Source of the DNA: Oscillospiraceae bacterium
Lineage (GTDB): Bacteria; Bacillota; Clostridia; Oscillospirales; Ruminococcaceae
Direction: 5' to 3'
Length of the DNA stretch: 64,000 bases
Assembly (NCBI GenBank): GCA_017466885.1
Contig: JAFTTH010000010.1
Span: 1-64,000 of the forward strand
The stretch's first letter is position 1; every line of letters starts with the position of its first letter. The notes below the pieces were generated by a model, which made no database searches, was not told the DNA's origin, and worked only from the letters and a program-made list of their open reading frames with translations. Below, piece after piece: positions 6,966 through 49,370 of this stretch. Both the position numbers and the translations under genes were made by a program.

Positions 6966-8618
6966 TTATTTCTTTGCGAAGCTATCCTTCAGCCCGACGA
7001 TCCGGTTGAATACGTTCTCGGAGCGGGTATCCTTGCAGAAGTACCCGGAGCGGACGAACTGATATCGGTCGCCCGGCTGGGCGGTGGCCAGAGAGGGCTC
7101 CAGCTTGCAGCCGGTATACTCCTTGAGGGAGTCGGGGTTGAGATAGTCATTGTAGGATTTATCCTCGGGAATGTCGCCGGTGTTTTCAATGGTGAAGAGC
7201 CGGTCGTAAAGCCGGACAGTCGCATCGATGGCGGTGGCGGCAGAAACCCAATGGATGGTGCCTTTGATCTTCCGGCCGTCAGGCGGGTTCTGACCCTTGG
7301 TCTCGGGATCGTACTCGCAGAAGACCTCGGTAACGTTGCCGGCATCATCGGTATTGTACCCGGTGCAGCGAACAACGTAAGCACCCATCAGCCGCACCTC
7401 GCCATCCGGCTTCATCCGGAAATACTTGGGAATGGGCTCGGCCATAAAGTCAGCCTGCTCAATATAAAGCTCCCGGGTGAAGGGAACCGAGCGGGTGCCG
7501 GCCGATTCATCGTTGGGGTTATTGGGCAGGTCAAAGTACTCCACCTGACCCTCGGGATAGTTGGTGACGGTTACCTTCAGAGGCTCCAGCACCGCAATGG
7601 CACGGGGGGCGGTCTGATTCAGCTCATTCCGGATGCAGTGCTCCAGCAGACCGATATCCACGATGCTATACGCCTTGGCGACGCCTACCCGCTTGAGGAA
7701 ATCGAAGATGGAGGAGGGGGTATAGCCCCGGCGGCGGAGACCGCAGATGGTGGGCATACGGGGGTCATCCCAACCGTCCACCAGCCCGGTTTCCACCAGC
7801 TGACGGAGATACCGCTTGCTCATTACCGTGTGGGTCACGTTCAGCCGGGCAAATTCCCGCTGTTTGGGTTTATTCTCAATGGGAATATTGTTGACCACCC
7901 ACTCGTAAAGAGGACGGTGGTTTTCAAACTCCAGAGAGCAGAGGGAGAAGGTGATCCCCTCAATGGCATCCTGAATGGGGTGGGCAAAATCGTAAAGGGG
8001 GTAGATGCACCACTTATCCCCCTGGCGGTGATGGGAAGCGTGAAGGATCCGGTAGATGACCGGGTCCCGCATATTGATATTGGGGGAGGACATATCGATC
8101 TTTGCCCGGAGGGTCTTTTCCCCGTCCCCGAACTCACCGGCCTTCATCCGCTCAAAAAGGTCGAGGTTTTCCTCCACGGAACGGTCGCGGTAGGGGCTGG
8201 GACGGCCCGGCTCGGTCAGAGTGCCCCGGTATTCCCGGATCTGATCGGCAGTCAGGTCGCAGACATAAGCCTTCCCCTCCTTAATAAGGTTAACGGCAAA
8301 TTCATAGCACTGGTCAAAATAGTCGGAACCGTAGAAAACGCCGCCGGTAGGCTCTGCACCCAGCCAGCAAAGATCCTCGTAGATGGAGCGGACGTACTCA
8401 TCGTCCTCCTTGATGGGGTTGGTGTCATCATACCGGAGGTTGAAAAGACCGCCGTATTTTTTGGCCGTTTCACTGTTGATCCAGATGGCCTTGGCGCTAC
8501 CGATATGCAGGTAGCCGTTGGGCTCGGGAGGGAACCGGGTGTGCACCTCGGTGGCGTATCCCTCGGCAAGATCCGCATCAATGATCTCGTGGATAAAATT
8601 GGATGCCATTTCTTCCAT
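6966..8618 (-). CDS. glnS: Glutaminyl-tRNA synthetase
   Basis: GlnRS charges tRNA-Gln directly with glutamine. The 550-residue protein has the class I HIGH motif as [17 protein letters not shown] near residue 30, the YDDTNP segment and the KMSKS equivalent [11 protein letters not shown]. It continues into the GlnRS-specific C-terminal beta-barrels. Most Firmicutes lack GlnRS and make Gln-tRNA by transamidation with GatCAB, but some Clostridia have it. GAAAGGAAG precedes the ATG at 8618. It sits 16 bp downstream of gltX on the same strand, so the two are probably one operon. Confidence 0.95.
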
Positions 8619-25853: not shown

Positions 25854-27110
25854 ATGGAAGTATTGCAACTGATCAATAACATTCTCTTCGGACTTTTTAT
25901 TGCTCTCTCCGCTTATCAGGTTGTATATTTTATTGTGTCGTTTTTTGTCAAAGAAAAGAAATTCCCCGAAGGGGAGAAGCATCGCTTTGCCGTTTTGATC
26001 TCCGCCCGGAATGAGGAAAAGGTCATCGGTCGGCTGGTGGAAAGCGTCAAGAAGCAGGACTATCCCTCCGAGCTGGTGGATGTTTACGTTGTGGCGGATA
26101 ACTGCACTGACGATACCGCCGGTGCCGCGGCCGCAGCGGGTGCCATTGTGCACCGTCGTTTCAGTGAGACCGAAAAGGGCAAGGGCTATGCCCTCCACTA
26201 TCTGCTGGACCTGATCTTTGCGGATAAGGGCAACGAATATTATGACGGATTCTTCGTTATGGATGCGGATAATCTGATGAAGGAAGACTTTATCACCGAG
26301 ATGAATAAGGTCTTTTCGGCCGGATATAAGATCGTCAACGGCTACCGCGCCCCCAAGAATTTCTCGGATGGCTGGGTTGCCTCCTCCTCCGCACTGTGGT
26401 TCCTTCACGAGTGCCGTCACCTCAATAAGCCCCGTATGGTTTTGGGAACGGGTTGTACTGTCACCGGCACCGGATTTTTGATGCATCGGGATATTATCAA
26501 TAAGAATGGTGGCTGGCACCACTTCCTCATCAGTGAGGATACCGAGCTGACTGCCGAATCCTTCCTGGATGGCGAAAAGACCGGCTATTGCGGCTCTGCC
26601 ATCTTCTATGATGAACAGCCGGTCAAGATCCGGCAATCCATCCGCCAGCGGATGCGGTGGACCAAAGGGTATCTGCAGGTCTTCCAGAAATATGGCGGAC
26701 GCTTGGTTCGCGGCTGGTTCAAAAAAGGCGGCTTTGCCCGGTTTGACCTTTGTATGTGCTTCCTGCCGGCCATTCTCTACTCGATGCTGACTGTGGTGGT
26801 CAATGTGATCTTCATCCCTCTGGGATTGATTATGCAGGATTTCACCCCCCTTGCTGCGCTGATCTATCTTGCAACGGCGCTGACAGGCGGTGTGGCTACC
26901 TTCTTTGCCATTGGGTTGATTACAATGATTACCGAATGGGGTCGGATCGCCGCTTCCACCTGGGTCAAGATCCGTTCCTTGATTGTATTCCCCTTTATGA
27001 TGCTGATTGTCCTTCCCTGTTCGGCGCTGGGCGCTTTCCAGAAGGCCGAATGGAAACCCATTGAGCATACATCTACCGTCTCGGTGGACGAGATCAAAAA
27101 AGCCCACTGA
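25854..27110 (+). CDS. Processive-type family 2 glycosyltransferase, membrane-bound
   Basis: A 418-residue GT2 enzyme. After an N-terminal helix (about 8-32) the catalytic domain has the nucleotide-binding ADNCTDDT, the DAD metal motif at 137-139, the base ED at 228-229 and QRMRW at 265-269, the QxxRW signature of processive synthases such as cellulose and poly-GlcNAc synthases. Three to four C-terminal helices follow (about 300-400), which would extrude the polymer. The sugar and acceptor are not known. The gene is alone. Immediately downstream come a broken terminator-like stem and an AT-rich insert. Confidence 0.87.
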   Translation: MEVLQLINNILFGLFIALSAYQVVYFIVSFFVKEKKFPEGEKHRFAVLISARNEEKVIGRLVESVKKQDYPSELVDVYVVADNCTDDTAGAAAAAGAIVHRRFSETEKGKGYALHYLLDLIFADKGNEYYDGFFVMDADNLMKEDFITEMNKVFSAGYKIVNGYRAPKNFSDGWVASSSALWFLHECRHLNKPRMVLGTGCTVTGTGFLMHRDIINKNGGWHHFLISEDTELTAESFLDGEKTGYCGSAIFYDEQPVKIRQSIRQRMRWTKGYLQVFQKYGGRLVRGWFKKGGFARFDLCMCFLPAILYSMLTVVVNVIFIPLGLIMQDFTPLAALIYLATALTGGVATFFAIGLITMITEWGRIAASTWVKIRSLIVFPFMMLIVLPCSALGAFQKAEWKPIEHTSTVSVDEIKKAH

Positions 27111-27142
27111 TCCATGAGAAATAAAGGAAAGAGCCTATGCGA

Positions 27143-27346
27143 TAGCCAAGTGTTCTAAAGGACACTTGGCTAGTTTTATTCGCCTTTCGGCGAGTTGTAT
27201 TGCTACGCAGTGATATTCGACTAATGCCGAGTGATATTGCCTTCGGCAGTTTTGGGGCGAATAAAATATCACTAAAACCGCAAGGTTTTAATATCACTTT
27301 GCCGTTAGGCAAAATATAACTGTGAGACCTGTCTCACAATATCACT
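27143..27346. repeat. Palindrome array A (linker AGTGATAT / ATATCACT)
   Basis: A chain of small hairpins: 27143-27172 (11-bp stem followed by GTTTTATT), 27181-27192, 27201-27209, 27217-27230, 27238-27248, 27273-27290, 27298-27313 and 27321-27338, each with a different stem. The linkers between them are AGTGATAT in the left half (27209-27216, 27230-27237) and its reverse complement ATATCACT in the right half (27266-27273, 27291-27298, 27339-27346, plus the variant ATATAACT at 27314-27321). TTTTATTCGCC (27174-27184) also pairs with GGCGAATAAAA (27256-27266). The whole can fold as a rod with hairpins pushed out on both sides. Arrays B and C share this design. Confidence 0.8.
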
Positions 27347-27382
27347 TTCGTTTGAGATAGGTAAAAGGGTTTTAGGTTCTCC

Positions 27383-27421
27383 TAACAAATGGGAACTGCC
27401 GTACTAGTTCCCTGCTTGTTA
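27383..27421. repeat. Isolated two-part hairpin beside array A
   Basis: TAACAA (27383-27388) pairs with TTGTTA (27416-27421), and the inner GGGAACT (27391-27397) with AGTTCCC (27406-27412). It lies in the 3' region of the minus-strand repressor gene and could be its terminator or part of the insert. No gene is seen between 27347 and 27473. Confidence 0.6.
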
Positions 27422-27473
27422 CGGTATAAGACAAGTGAAAAATCGTTTTGAGATATATTTTACTTTGAAAAAT

Positions 27474-27710
27474 TTATTTTATTTTTTTGAATTGCTTTTC
27501 CGGTGATATTTTGAAATGCTTTTGCAAATTGAAGACAATCTCAACGCTTAATTTTTCGGGAAGTTCTCCCCTTTCTATCTTGTTCAATGCATAAATACTA
27601 ATATTTAAAACATTTGCCATCTCTTTTTTTGAAAGCCCATTCTTTTTTCTTAAATATGCAATGTTATTTATAAAATTATTTATTTCATCATTTATATTTT
27701 TTCTTATCAT
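27474..27710 (-). CDS. Small XRE-family (Cro/C1-type) repressor
   Basis: A 78-residue protein with one helix-turn-helix at about 19-70 (LRKKNGLSKKEMANVLNISIYALNKIERG). It has high Lys/Asn/Ile content and AT-rich codons, unlike the chromosomal genes around it, which suggests acquisition. It is divergent from a second, unrelated repressor gene at 27823, with three operator-like sites in the 112-bp gap. This is the arrangement of a phage-type switch. No other phage genes are present. Confidence 0.8.
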   Translation of the reverse strand: MIRKNINDEINNFINNIAYLRKKNGLSKKEMANVLNISIYALNKIERGELPEKLSVEIVFNLQKHFKISPEKQFKKIK

Positions 27711-27731
27711 TTCAACCTCTCCTCGGATAAA

Positions 27732-27793
27732 TCAAAATTGATGTAATTTATTTTAACATCATATTTGATGTTTGTCAATACATCATTTGTGAT
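27732..27793. promoter_or_regulatory. Three operator-like sites ATCA-N4-TGAT in the divergent repressor region
   Basis: ATCAAAATTGAT (27732-27743), ATCATATTTGAT (27759-27770) and ATCATTTGTGAT (27782-27793) share ATCA-N4-TGAT. The middle one extends to a 16-bp dyad, ACATCA-N4-TGATGT (27757-27772). The middle site fills the spacer of the leftward promoter and the right one the spacer of the rightward promoter. Confidence 0.7.
27751..27779 (-). promoter_or_regulatory. Leftward promoter of the 27474-27710 repressor
   Basis: On the minus strand TTGACA (27774-27779), exactly 17 bp, TAAAAT (27751-27756). The central operator lies in the spacer. Confidence 0.8.
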
Positions 27794-27800
27794 TTATCAT
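27773..27800 (+). promoter_or_regulatory. Rightward promoter of the 27823-28041 repressor
   Basis: TTGTCA (27773-27778), 16 bp, TATCAT (27795-27800). The right operator lies in the spacer, and the -35 overlaps that of the leftward promoter. Confidence 0.6.
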
Positions 27801-27822
27801 TAAATAGGAAAGAGGGATCAAA

Positions 27823-28041
27823 ATGGAATATTATAAAAGAATAAGAGAAATCAGAATTAAGAATAACGAAACTCAACAACAACTTGCCGATTTATTAGAA
27901 ACAACTCAACAAGCCTATTTAAAATACGAAAAGGGCATAAATGAAATGCCAATCAGTAGAATCATAAAATTATGCAAACATTATAATTTATCTGCTGATT
28001 ATATTTTAGGGCTCACTGACCAACCAAAACCTTTAAAATAA
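27823..28041 (+). CDS. Small XRE-family (Cro/C1-type) regulator
   Basis: A 72-residue protein that is almost entirely one helix-turn-helix domain (RIKNNETQQQLADLLETTQQAYLKYEKG), ending in the common YILGLTDQPKP tail. AAAGAGGG precedes the ATG. Its codons are AT-rich like those of the divergent repressor. The tail is typical of stand-alone XRE proteins in mobile elements of Firmicutes. It is closed by its own strong terminator. It regulates the shared operators at least, and chromosomal targets are unknown. Confidence 0.85.
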   Translation: MEYYKRIREIRIKNNETQQQLADLLETTQQAYLKYEKGINEMPISRIIKLCKHYNLSADYILGLTDQPKPLK

Positions 28042-28073
28042 AAACCACGCTGATTTTACTGGCATATTGCAAT

Positions 28074-28108
28074 AAAAAATGCACGAAAATTTCGTGCATT
28101 TTTTATTT
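28074..28108 (+). terminator. Terminator of the rightward repressor gene
   Basis: A nearly perfect hairpin of AAAAAATGCACGAAA (28074-28088) with its complement at 28090-28104, then TATTTTG. Confidence 0.9.
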
Positions 28109-28153
28109 TGTCCTTAGCAACCCTACTCTATTGCATAGGCTCTTTTTTGTGCG

Positions 28154-48025: not shown

Positions 48026-48192
48026 GGTATATCGCTGATGCGATATGATATACGGCGTTGCCGTATGATATACTTGCTTCGCAAGTATGATATAATATCC
48101 GTTCCTTCATATGCCGAAGACATATATCATCGCTCGCAGAGCAATATCATATCGAAGATATATCACCCGTTCCGACAGGAACGGATATCATT
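48026..48192. repeat. Palindrome array B (linker TATGATAT / ATATCATA)
   Basis: Hairpins at 48029-48046 (ATATCGC stem), 48050-48066 (ATACGGC), 48070-48088 (ATACTTGC), 48109-48125 (ATATG), 48132-48142 (GCTC), 48150-48160 (TATC) and 48167-48184 (CCGTTCC). Left-half linkers read TATGATAT, and right-half linkers read ATATCAT (48124-48130, 48144-48150, 48184-48190). The right-hand stem can also pair with TATCCGTTCC at 48096-48105, so two folds compete. The ends carry inverted TTCAATG and CATTGAA. Confidence 0.8.
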
Positions 48193-48275
48193 GAAAAGAG
48201 CAACCAAACGGAGCAGAATCGAGGTAAGAGTAAGTAAAAGTAGTGCACATGCTCCGTTAGATAGATTAAAACATG

Positions 48276-48887
48276 TCAGTTATTAGTTATTGAGGATAAA
48301 TAAGATTTCATATCCCCAACAAATTGATTTCCACAACGTGCGAGTTCACCCAATACTCTGTCAATACCATTTTCAGTTGTAAACCAATTATCTTTCGTTA
48401 TATTGTAGCAATGAACAGGGCATACCTTAATCTCAACATTGGGAAAAGCCATTTGATAAAGCATAAGGCAACGTCTGGCATGAAACGCTTTGCAGACAAT
48501 CAATGCTGTTTTTATATCAATGCCACTTTCGTCAACGGCTTTTCGTGAAAGAAAAGCATTATCACGAGTATGTCTCGATTTGTCCTCTCCAATAATTGCA
48601 TCTATAGGTACACCGTTTTTTGCAAACACATCGATAAAGAACGCGCAGTCGGATTGGTAATCGCCAGTATATATTTCTGCTTTCGAACGAACACCTGGCC
48701 ATTTATCTCGCTTAACACTAACTCCACCAGAGGGAATAAGCCACTTTGCATAACCTTTATGGTACAGTTCGGCCGCATATTCAGGTTGCTCAGGATGTGA
48801 CCCTCCCGGCAGAAAGATTGCATCAACCTTTTCAGGCTCATCAGAAATAAAAATATAGTCGGAAATATCGGAAATAATCTTATTCAT
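48276..48887 (-). CDS. YdcF-family (DUF218) protein
   Basis: A 203-residue protein with the DUF218/YdcF fold: DAIFLPGGSHPEQPEYAAELYHKGYAKWLIPSGGVSV (read in parts), then GVPIDAIIGEDKSRHTRDNAFLSRK and TALIVCKAFHARRCLMLYQMAFP. The conserved Gly-rich turn, Glu-Asp pair, Asn and the HARR stretch are present. E. coli YdcF binds SAM, and other members act on the cell envelope. The role here is unknown. The ATG at 48887 has AAAGGAG upstream and overlaps the stop of a truncated four-helix-bundle gene (ATGA). Codon use is AT-richer than in the neighbours, suggesting transfer. There is no membrane anchor. Confidence 0.83.
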   Translation of the reverse strand: MNKIISDISDYIFISDEPEKVDAIFLPGGSHPEQPEYAAELYHKGYAKWLIPSGGVSVKRDKWPGVRSKAEIYTGDYQSDCAFFIDVFAKNGVPIDAIIGEDKSRHTRDNAFLSRKAVDESGIDIKTALIVCKAFHARRCLMLYQMAFPNVEIKVCPVHCYNITKDNWFTTENGIDRVLGELARCGNQFVGDMKSYLSSITNN

Positions 48888-49048
48888 TTCGCATTCTCCT
48901 TTGCTGTGCGGCAGGAAGCGATCAGCATTACACGCAAGGAAGTACACATTGCAGAAAGTGATTTATATAATTGCTCGTCGATGTAGTTGGTTCTGTGCAA
49001 CAACTCAAGCCAATACCCTGTTTCACTTGCTCCTTTAAAAGTAATTAT
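48884..49048 (-). pseudogene. C-terminal remnant of a four-helix-bundle (S23/Avd-like) protein gene
   Basis: The last about 48 codons read KGASETGYWLELLHRTNYIDEQ, then a helical tail ending TAKENAK. This matches the C-terminal half of four-helix-bundle proteins of the 23S-rRNA-intervening-sequence/Avd type (typical ALKEASETEYWLELL). The upstream half (RSGTSIGANIAEA region) is missing. In its place stand array C and a promoter whose -10 box lies within the frame. The stop codon overlaps the YdcF start, a relic of operon coupling. AAAGGAG inside the remnant arises from codons for Lys-Gly. Confidence 0.6.
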
Positions 49049-49072
49049 ATCATAAAAATCAGGACATTTCAA
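49044..49072 (-). promoter_or_regulatory. Promoter joined to palindrome array C
   Basis: On the minus strand TTGAAA (49067-49072), 17 bp, perfect TATAAT (49044-49049). It points toward the YdcF gene. Its -35 is part of the outer ATCATTGAAA repeat of array C. Confidence 0.78.
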
Positions 49073-49240
49073 TGATGCGTCGCCTAACGGCGACATGATG
49101 TTATGCTCCGCATAATGATGTTGCTCGTTTCGCTCGCAATGATGCGATGTTTGCCCCGAAACATTAGGCGAAGACGACATCATTAGCGTCAGCGTCATCA
49201 TTCGTGAAACAACATCATTTGCCGAAGGCAAACATCATTC
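49067..49240. repeat. Palindrome array C (linker ATGATG / CATCAT)
   Basis: Hairpins at 49079-49094 (GTCGCC stem), 49101-49115 (TTATGC), 49121-49139 (TTGC), 49147-49164 (ATGTTT) and 49218-49232 (TTTGCC), with weaker ones between 49173 and 49207. Linkers in the left half are ATGATG (49072-49077, 49095-49100, 49115-49120, 49139-49144). In the right half they are CATCAT (49178-49183, 49196-49201, 49213-49218, 49233-49238). It lies between the four-helix-bundle remnant and the terminator of tRNA-Leu. Confidence 0.8.
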
Positions 49241-49281
49241 AAAAAAGCCTAATTTGTCTGGTAGACAAAGTAGGCTTTTTT
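49241..49281 (-). terminator. Terminator of tRNA-Leu
   Basis: AAAAAAGCCTA (49241-49251) pairs with TAGGCTTTTTT (49271-49281), with an inner GTC/GAC extension. It sits directly after the tRNA 3' end on the minus strand. Confidence 0.85.
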
Positions 49282-49283
49282 GT

Positions 49284-49370
49284 TGGTGCCGCTGACCGGG
49301 ATCGAACCGGTACGGTATCACTACCGAGGGATTTTAAGTCCCTTGTGTCTGCCAGTTCCACCACAGCGGC
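49284..49370 (-). tRNA. tRNA-Leu (anticodon UAA)
   Basis: On the minus strand the acceptor GCCGCTG pairs with CAGCGGC, followed by A and an encoded CCA. The anticodon stem AGGGA/TCCCT encloses CTTAAAA, giving anticodon TAA. The T arm contains GGTTCGATCC, and the long variable arm (CGGTAGTGATACCG) is the class II form of leucine tRNAs. Total length is 87 nt. It is a single-gene transcript with its own promoter and terminator. The palindrome-array patch lies at its 3' side. Confidence 0.96.

Follow-up and report, generated by a model that had tools for sequence, protein, structure and literature searches.

The window, by which is meant the whole stretch of 64,000 nucleotides of Oscillospiraceae bacterium DNA analysed here, holds at positions 27143-27346 a chain of short hairpins with unrelated stems joined by a repeated linker (array A). 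Such an arrangement raises the questions of what the array belongs to, whether its structure is maintained, and whether it works as DNA or as RNA.

Structure of array A

By sequence inspection eight hairpins were counted in array A, about the number expected by a sequence-only reading of the locus. The hairpins are linked by AGTTTTATT, AGTTGTATT, AGTGATATT and AGTGATATT in the left half and by AATATCACT, AATATCACT, AATATAACT and AATATCACT in the right half. The linker orientation inverts in the middle of the array as that reading had stated, whereas its description of one and the same 8-bp linker was too strict, since the copies AGTTTTATT, AGTTGTATT and AATATAACT are variants. AGTGATAT occurs six times in the window against 0.5 occurrences expected from shuffling, and five of these lie within array A. 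The fold energy of the array as DNA is 7 SD under that of dinucleotide shuffles, and TTCG and GCAA, loops favoured in RNA, are found among its hairpins. A CRISPR, with identical repeats and unique non-palindromic spacers, is not present, as had also been recognized: hairpins occupy the intervals between the linkers, and the orientation of the linker is reversed at the centre. The features of the array are:

27143-27172, no strand assigned: terminal hairpin and terminal inverted repeat at the array end (TAGCCAAGTGTTCTAAAGGACACTTGGCTA), alike in position and fold in 30+ related elements
27172-27346, + strand: hairpin array A, seven hairpins with AGTGATATT-type linkers on the left and AATATCACT-type linkers on the right, defined by sequence and by alignment and covariation of 31 relatives
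27174-27184, + strand: 5′ strand of a long-range helix, TTTTATTCGCC, with a covarying pair (UA/AU/CG)
27256-27266, + strand: 3′ strand of the long-range helix, GGCGAATAAAA, with the same covarying pair (UA/AU/CG)

Covariation of stems and linkers

For the analysis of covariation 31 distinct arrays were aligned. Pairing in the hairpins was kept at 90% compared to 67% after shuffling, 208 double-change cells were counted in the stems compared to 64, and the stem covariation score was 0.55 compared to 0.15, with slid controls at 0.08 or below. Due to the fact that the stem sequence varies while pairing is kept, the process acting on the array is directed at structure and linker and not at stem sequence, and the earlier suggestion of such selection or copying was borne out. 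The long-range helix TTTATTCGCC/GGCGAATAAA, likewise proposed from the window, gained support from one covarying pair (U-A in 15, A-U in 10 and C-G in 5 of the 31 sequences). The proposed pairing of the linkers into a rod had to be rejected, because the covariation score of the nested left-right linker pairing did not exceed that of the control (0.026 compared to 0.025-0.033 in slid alignments) and because linker positions 4-5 are variable or mismatched without compensation. Covariation among relatives, suggested beforehand as a check of stems and linkers, was thus obtained for the former but not for the latter; the linker is conserved as a repeated word and not as a helix.

The mismatches in the hairpin stems were 16 G-T and 14 A-C, without wobble bias on either strand, and because these numbers are equal the signature of RNA wobble is lacking. 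A functional RNA would be strand-biased, whereas a DNA structure or the correction of palindromes during replication would not. Hence we favour folded single-stranded DNA over RNA as the probable active form, the missing wobble asymmetry being the sole argument for this preference.

Array A is the head of an element inserted in a terminator

Comparison of flanks revealed that many copies carry a short arm and a T-run beyond the terminal hairpin, resembling half a terminator, so that the other half was expected at the far end of the element. In the window the far arm (GGCTCTTT expected downstream) was predicted before inspection and found at 28133-28145. Array A is one end of a larger element, which by motif extends over 27143-28123, has an inverted end reaching to about 28129, carries two small helix-turn-helix genes and occupies the terminator loop of the glycosyltransferase gene upstream. 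The inverted ends of the element are imperfect. The coordinates first assigned are accurate for the array but not for the element: what had been described is only the head of a mobile element that carries cargo genes and is inserted in a terminator. In the minimum-energy (MFE) RNA fold the two terminator arms pair across the entire element. The features of the element and its site are:

25854-27110: host gene upstream, encoding a GT2 glycosyltransferase
27128-27140, + strand: 5′ arm of the interrupted host terminator downstream of the GT2 gene, AAAGAGCCTATGC, perfect complement of 28133-28145
27352-27433, + strand: conserved non-coding module GAGATAGGTAAAAGGGTTTTAGGTTCTCCTAAC...CCTGCTTGTTACGGTATAAGACAA, common to other elements of the family
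27474-27710, - strand: cargo gene, XRE-type helix-turn-helix protein of 78 aa (Pfam HTH_3, E 5.9e-8)
27823-28041, + strand: cargo gene, XRE-type helix-turn-helix protein of 72 aa (Pfam HTH_3, E 4.2e-11)
28071-28107, no strand assigned: internal bidirectional terminator-like hairpin (inverted repeat I3), with an equivalent at the far end of locus L374
28109-28129, no strand assigned: far terminal inverted repeat TGTCCTTAGCAACCCTACTCT, matching the far ends of L374, L191, L074 and L145
28133-28145, + strand: GCATAGGCTCTTT, 3′ arm of the interrupted host terminator with the T-run after it, predicted and then found

In L374 the module GAGATAGGTAAAAGGGTTTTAGGTTCTCCTAAC...CCTGCTTGTTACGGTATAAGACAA adjoins the far end of the element; in L189, L222 and L074 it is found close to the array.

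Far arms were first sought automatically, and 7 of 35 were recovered compared to about one expected; the low yield is explained by the requirement for almost exact matches over as many as 13 letters. This search was superseded by a two-ended test of 22 gut Clostridia elements, both ends of which were identified by sequence motif. The mean complementarity of left and right flanks was 11.6 compared to 6.9 (sd 1.6) for swapped flanks, a value reached in none of 20,000 permutations (largest permuted mean 9.0), and the true partner ranked first in 17 of the 22 elements. Other hosts are the terminators of rpsR (L203), of a cystathionine/homocysteine-type enzyme gene (L225) and of a thioredoxin-reductase-like gene ahead of an apparent glycine riboswitch (L215), genes that were named from their sequence without a family search.

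The full layout is seen in L374 of genome G104: a first host arm and the terminal hairpin lead into the array and a promoter, behind which come the genes for S23 and an ion channel, and the series is closed by the conserved module, a terminator, the inverted end and the second host arm. The host gene in G104, identified by eye as nifJ-type, has a split terminator with a cassette of about 1.5 kb encoding S23 and a K+ channel inside, and the terminator of this gene is uninterrupted in the congeners G148 and G149, the stem in G148 resembling the split one. No exact empty site was found at the nucleotide level; the congener terminators are homologous in place and their stems have diverged. A target-site duplication of about 2 bp (AA/AT/TA) was read by eye, with no exact empty allele for comparison. 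Arrays next to tRNA genes lie beside an intact terminator rather than in its loop, so that the target rule is not uniform, and at one and the same tRNA the arrays and the genes that follow differ between G104 and G149, two members of one genus.

One such tRNA-adjacent cassette with related arrays is located in the window at 48032-49285 and consists of:

48119-48193: TGATATA array with a Gut-1 match
48276-48881: DUF218 gene
48920-49036: S23 remnant
about 49074-49239: TGATGTT array
49240-49282: terminator-like hairpin by the tRNA
49287-49370: tRNA

Tandem cassettes follow tRNA genes at L102 (G104:C14) and at L100 and L039 (G000). Their plan comprises an array, a promoter, one or more genes, a conserved tail module CTTTTGGTCG...GCTCTTTCGC and a terminator whose loop is TTTGTCTAC. 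S23 is frequently the first gene, and the second is variable (pyrophosphatase-like and others). At L047:7136-7185 and 7822-7875 terminators with mismatched arms were observed, the 5′ arm of GCCTAATTTGTCT type and the 3′ arm of AGACAAAAGAGG type, which look like two terminators recombined at a TTTGTCT loop.

Distribution of the family

Six further copies with 71-83% identity are dispersed in the genome of the window, together with related arrays that have other linker words (ATGATGTT, TGATATA, TGAAATA and others). Linker words vary between families and the layout is constant; hairpin number and order and the linker word are conserved across genera. Sampling of 100 genera from the same family recovered the exact double AGTGATATT pattern from this genome alone. 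A pattern scan of public genomes yielded 62 hairpin-bearing loci, 44 of them with the inverted half downstream, mostly from MAGs of ruminant-gut Clostridia. Matches in unrelated phyla (Colwellia, Shewanella, Psychrobacter and others) lacked the inverted half and were attributed to chance. In 120 stretches of viral contigs one true array locus (L242) was detected, and no S23 relatives were found in the scan of viral contigs. The sequences were mostly MAG contigs, and array-rich contigs often end within arrays (G000 C4, C10, C12, C19, C35 and C42; G071 C82, C137, C151 and C165), so that assemblies break there and copy numbers are underestimated.

Cargo genes and promoters

Cargo is exchanged between elements. 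It comprises, besides the helix-turn-helix genes of the window, S23 (a four-helix-bundle protein) with a K+/ion channel in L374, S23 with a small membrane protein in L170, an acetyltransferase in L044 and a NUDIX protein in L125; regulators are a minority across elements. Compact copies of about 280-385 bp without cargo retain the whole array, for which reason the array serves the element and not the cargo. In copies with cargo the promoter starts at the array end and is directed away from it; in L145, L170, L188 and L125 a good promoter has its -35 element starting at the last T of the last linker, with a spacing of 17 bp. No good promoter adjoins the array in cargo-free copies. The array as a promoter part was rejected, a good promoter being present in some cargo copies only and the mean over 33 arrays being 8.0 compared to 7.8 after shuffling. 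A two-hairpin module (GGGTTTGGGC..GCCC; GC.TTTGT..ACAAA.GC; then GGTTCT/CCGGC) is shared by L031/L046, L042, L166, L188 and L138, where it occurs either within elements that have no cargo or in what looks like the 5′ leader of cargo genes.

S23, which is related to the accessory protein Avd of DGRs, is near only 2 of the 62 loci with AGTGATATT arrays (family A) and was ruled out as universal cargo. In the genome of the window five of six S23 genes adjoin arrays (P ~1e-5), and S23 is present in 4 of 10 Gut-1-positive genomes compared to 15 of 138 others (p 0.025). In array-free relatives most S23 genes have no arrays.

Relationship to Gut-1

The sequence-only reading could name no family for the array. 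A name can be given in part, because the left half is a near-threshold match of the Rfam family Gut-1 that sister copies pass:

27171-27242, + strand: half-array matching Gut-1 RF01706 with 47.1 bits (gathering threshold 50, E 2.9e-8)

The other half scores 29.9 bits on the opposite strand, and sister copies at L043 and L037 exceed the threshold with 61.3 and 52.1 bits. Gut-1 matches were obtained in 10 of 148 genomes of the family, often as convergent pairs, + then -, within about 200 bases. Such pairs recur in G104:C14, G000:C42 and C30, G071:C170 and C174, and G111:C16, which indicates that Gut-1 is half of a palindromic double array; only one half of the palindrome seems to be represented in the Rfam model. 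Gut-1 and array A share three hairpins, free stem sequence and a repeated joining word, of GUGAAAU type in Gut-1 and AGTGATATT in array A. In contrast to the Gut-1 model, which describes one half, the complete unit is a double array in convergent orientation, which frequently carries cargo and shows no RNA strand bias. In a 2010 survey Gut-1, known there from human gut sequences only, was regarded as certainly RNA and most likely an expressed non-coding RNA (PMC2864571). No function for Gut-1 was found in the literature.

Search for a mover

None of the elements examined encodes a recombinase. Y1 transposases (IS200/IS605/RAYT) were rejected as movers, being absent from the genome of the window and present in 4 of 10 Gut-1-positive genomes compared to 59 of 138 others, as were IS630-type DDE_3 transposases (0 of 10 Gut-1-positive genomes). 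No integron integrase (TIGR02249) scored over the cut-off in G000, G104, G071, G083, G118 and G111.

Comparison with known systems

The closest analogy for the target is the rRNA intervening sequences (IVS), which replace tetraloops of 23S rRNA helices 9, 25 and 45, have complementary ends and in some cases encode S23 (PMC4990558). Insertion in a hairpin loop with complementary ends, which extend the host stem, was found in the 22 two-ended elements, and S23 in some copies and a scattered distribution are further likenesses. The elements differ in their targets, which are terminators of protein genes (GT2, nifJ-type, rpsR) and not rRNA genes, in having a hairpin array, variable cargo and an own cargo promoter, and in that most family A copies, including the one in the window, lack S23, so that they resemble IVS without belonging to them. 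A further hallmark of IVS is their excision from the transcript by RNase III. With the MITEs BOX, RUP and SPRITE of Streptococcus the elements have in common that they are short, non-autonomous, highly base-paired and intergenic with inverted ends, and that some are modular; the compact copies, of which there are many, are short, non-coding, dispersed and bounded by inverted ends. Unlike these MITEs, they are specific for terminator loops, have an array in which the linkers are fixed and the stems free, and carry genes as cargo, and no IS was found to match them (Y1 and DDE_3 checked). For the site the closest analogy is integron attC, which is recognised by its fold and not by its sequence (PMC2727003). 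Integron cassettes share the folded palindromic site and the free stem sequence, and related arrays occur in tandem cassettes after tRNA genes. The elements differ from them in lacking an integron integrase over the cut-off in six array-bearing genomes, in the position of the array upstream of the cargo promoter, in the terminator target and in the number of seven to eight hairpins, so that the likeness is one of analogy and not of membership.

Alternative explanations

With good probability array A forms the head of a mobile DNA cassette, which is non-autonomous and targets the loops of intrinsic terminators, although no movement was observed. Other explanations have to be weighed against this reading. 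If the array were transcribed and worked as a structured non-coding RNA of the Gut-1 class, its terminator context would be that of a 3′ trailer or small RNA, and the strong covariation of the stems and the RNA-favoured TTCG and GCAA loops would be accounted for. The Rfam entry and the certainty of the 2010 survey (PMC2864571) point in the same direction. Against such an RNA, which we consider improbable, stand the equal wobble on both strands (16 compared to 14), the convergent Gut-1 pairs, palindrome halves that a one-stranded RNA does not need, the cargo promoters that begin at the array end and point away, and the cargo-free copies without a good promoter by the array. An RNA level is also invoked if the elements are relatives of IVS that target hairpin loops through an RNA intermediate with S23 as mobility factor. 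The published logic is the same, with IVS in rRNA tetraloops, complementary ends and in part S23 (PMC4990558), S23 is cargo of the terminator-loop elements L374 and L170, and its genes are found by arrays in the genome of the window (five of six) and enriched in Gut-1-positive genomes. This relationship is nevertheless unlikely to be the explanation: with S23 at 2 of 62 AGTGATATT-array loci and many elements carrying other or no cargo it is not required in cis, the elements examined contain no reverse transcriptase, the stems lack the RNA wobble signature, and most S23 genes of array-free relatives are without arrays.

The near-perfect Watson-Crick stems on both strands and the replacement of whole stems are the mark expected of palindrome correction, in which template switching during replication and swapping of hairpins by recombination would keep the stems of a functionless array. 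The conserved hairpin number and order, the linker word shared across genera and the whole array in cargo-free copies are left unexplained by it, and little probability is assigned to it. Both palindrome correction and an IVS-like origin could be compatible with a mobile element, so that the confidences given to these explanations are not exclusive. Lastly, the AGTGATATT words could be bound by a regulator, for which the helix-turn-helix proteins of the cargo are candidates, and read-through could be stopped by the hairpins, the array acting as operator or insulator of the cargo promoter. The fusion of -35 elements with the last linker in several copies that carry cargo, the two helix-turn-helix proteins of the window and the conserved repeated word agree with this; however, promoterless cargo-free copies retain the array, most cargo is not regulatory, and linker words differ between families of the same layout, which makes such a role very improbable.

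Proposed mechanism and implications

For the mobile cassette the following mechanism is proposed. A recombinase acting in trans would recognise the array folded as single-stranded DNA or cruciform, the linkers serving as binding word and the hairpins as the structure that is read. The element would then be joined to a target which likewise consists of a small hairpin in extruded form, with duplication of about 2 bp. Terminators would offer many similar, unselected loops, and since the element folds on itself and the terminator arms can still meet, insertion may cost the host little and leave termination nearly unaffected. Expression of the cargo would start from the promoter with which the last array linker is fused.

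More tentatively, and with some doubt on our part, the elements may represent a new class of mobile element that recognises both target and itself by hairpins only, homes to terminator loops, uses a multi-hairpin single-stranded DNA array as recombination site and is S23-linked kin of the rRNA intervening sequences; Gut-1 would then be half of a recombination site and not an RNA gene. A literature search, from which most subscription journals were out of reach and which is weak evidence of novelty, found no prior description of the element.

With these findings a catalogued gut RNA, Gut-1, gains a place and a likely purpose. A mobile element targeting terminator loops would use a safe harbour that is offered by very many operons, and the spread of S23-linked intervening sequences, a long-open question, becomes testable outside rRNA. 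As their genes are exchangeable, the elements may provide gut Clostridia with a way of exchanging genes.
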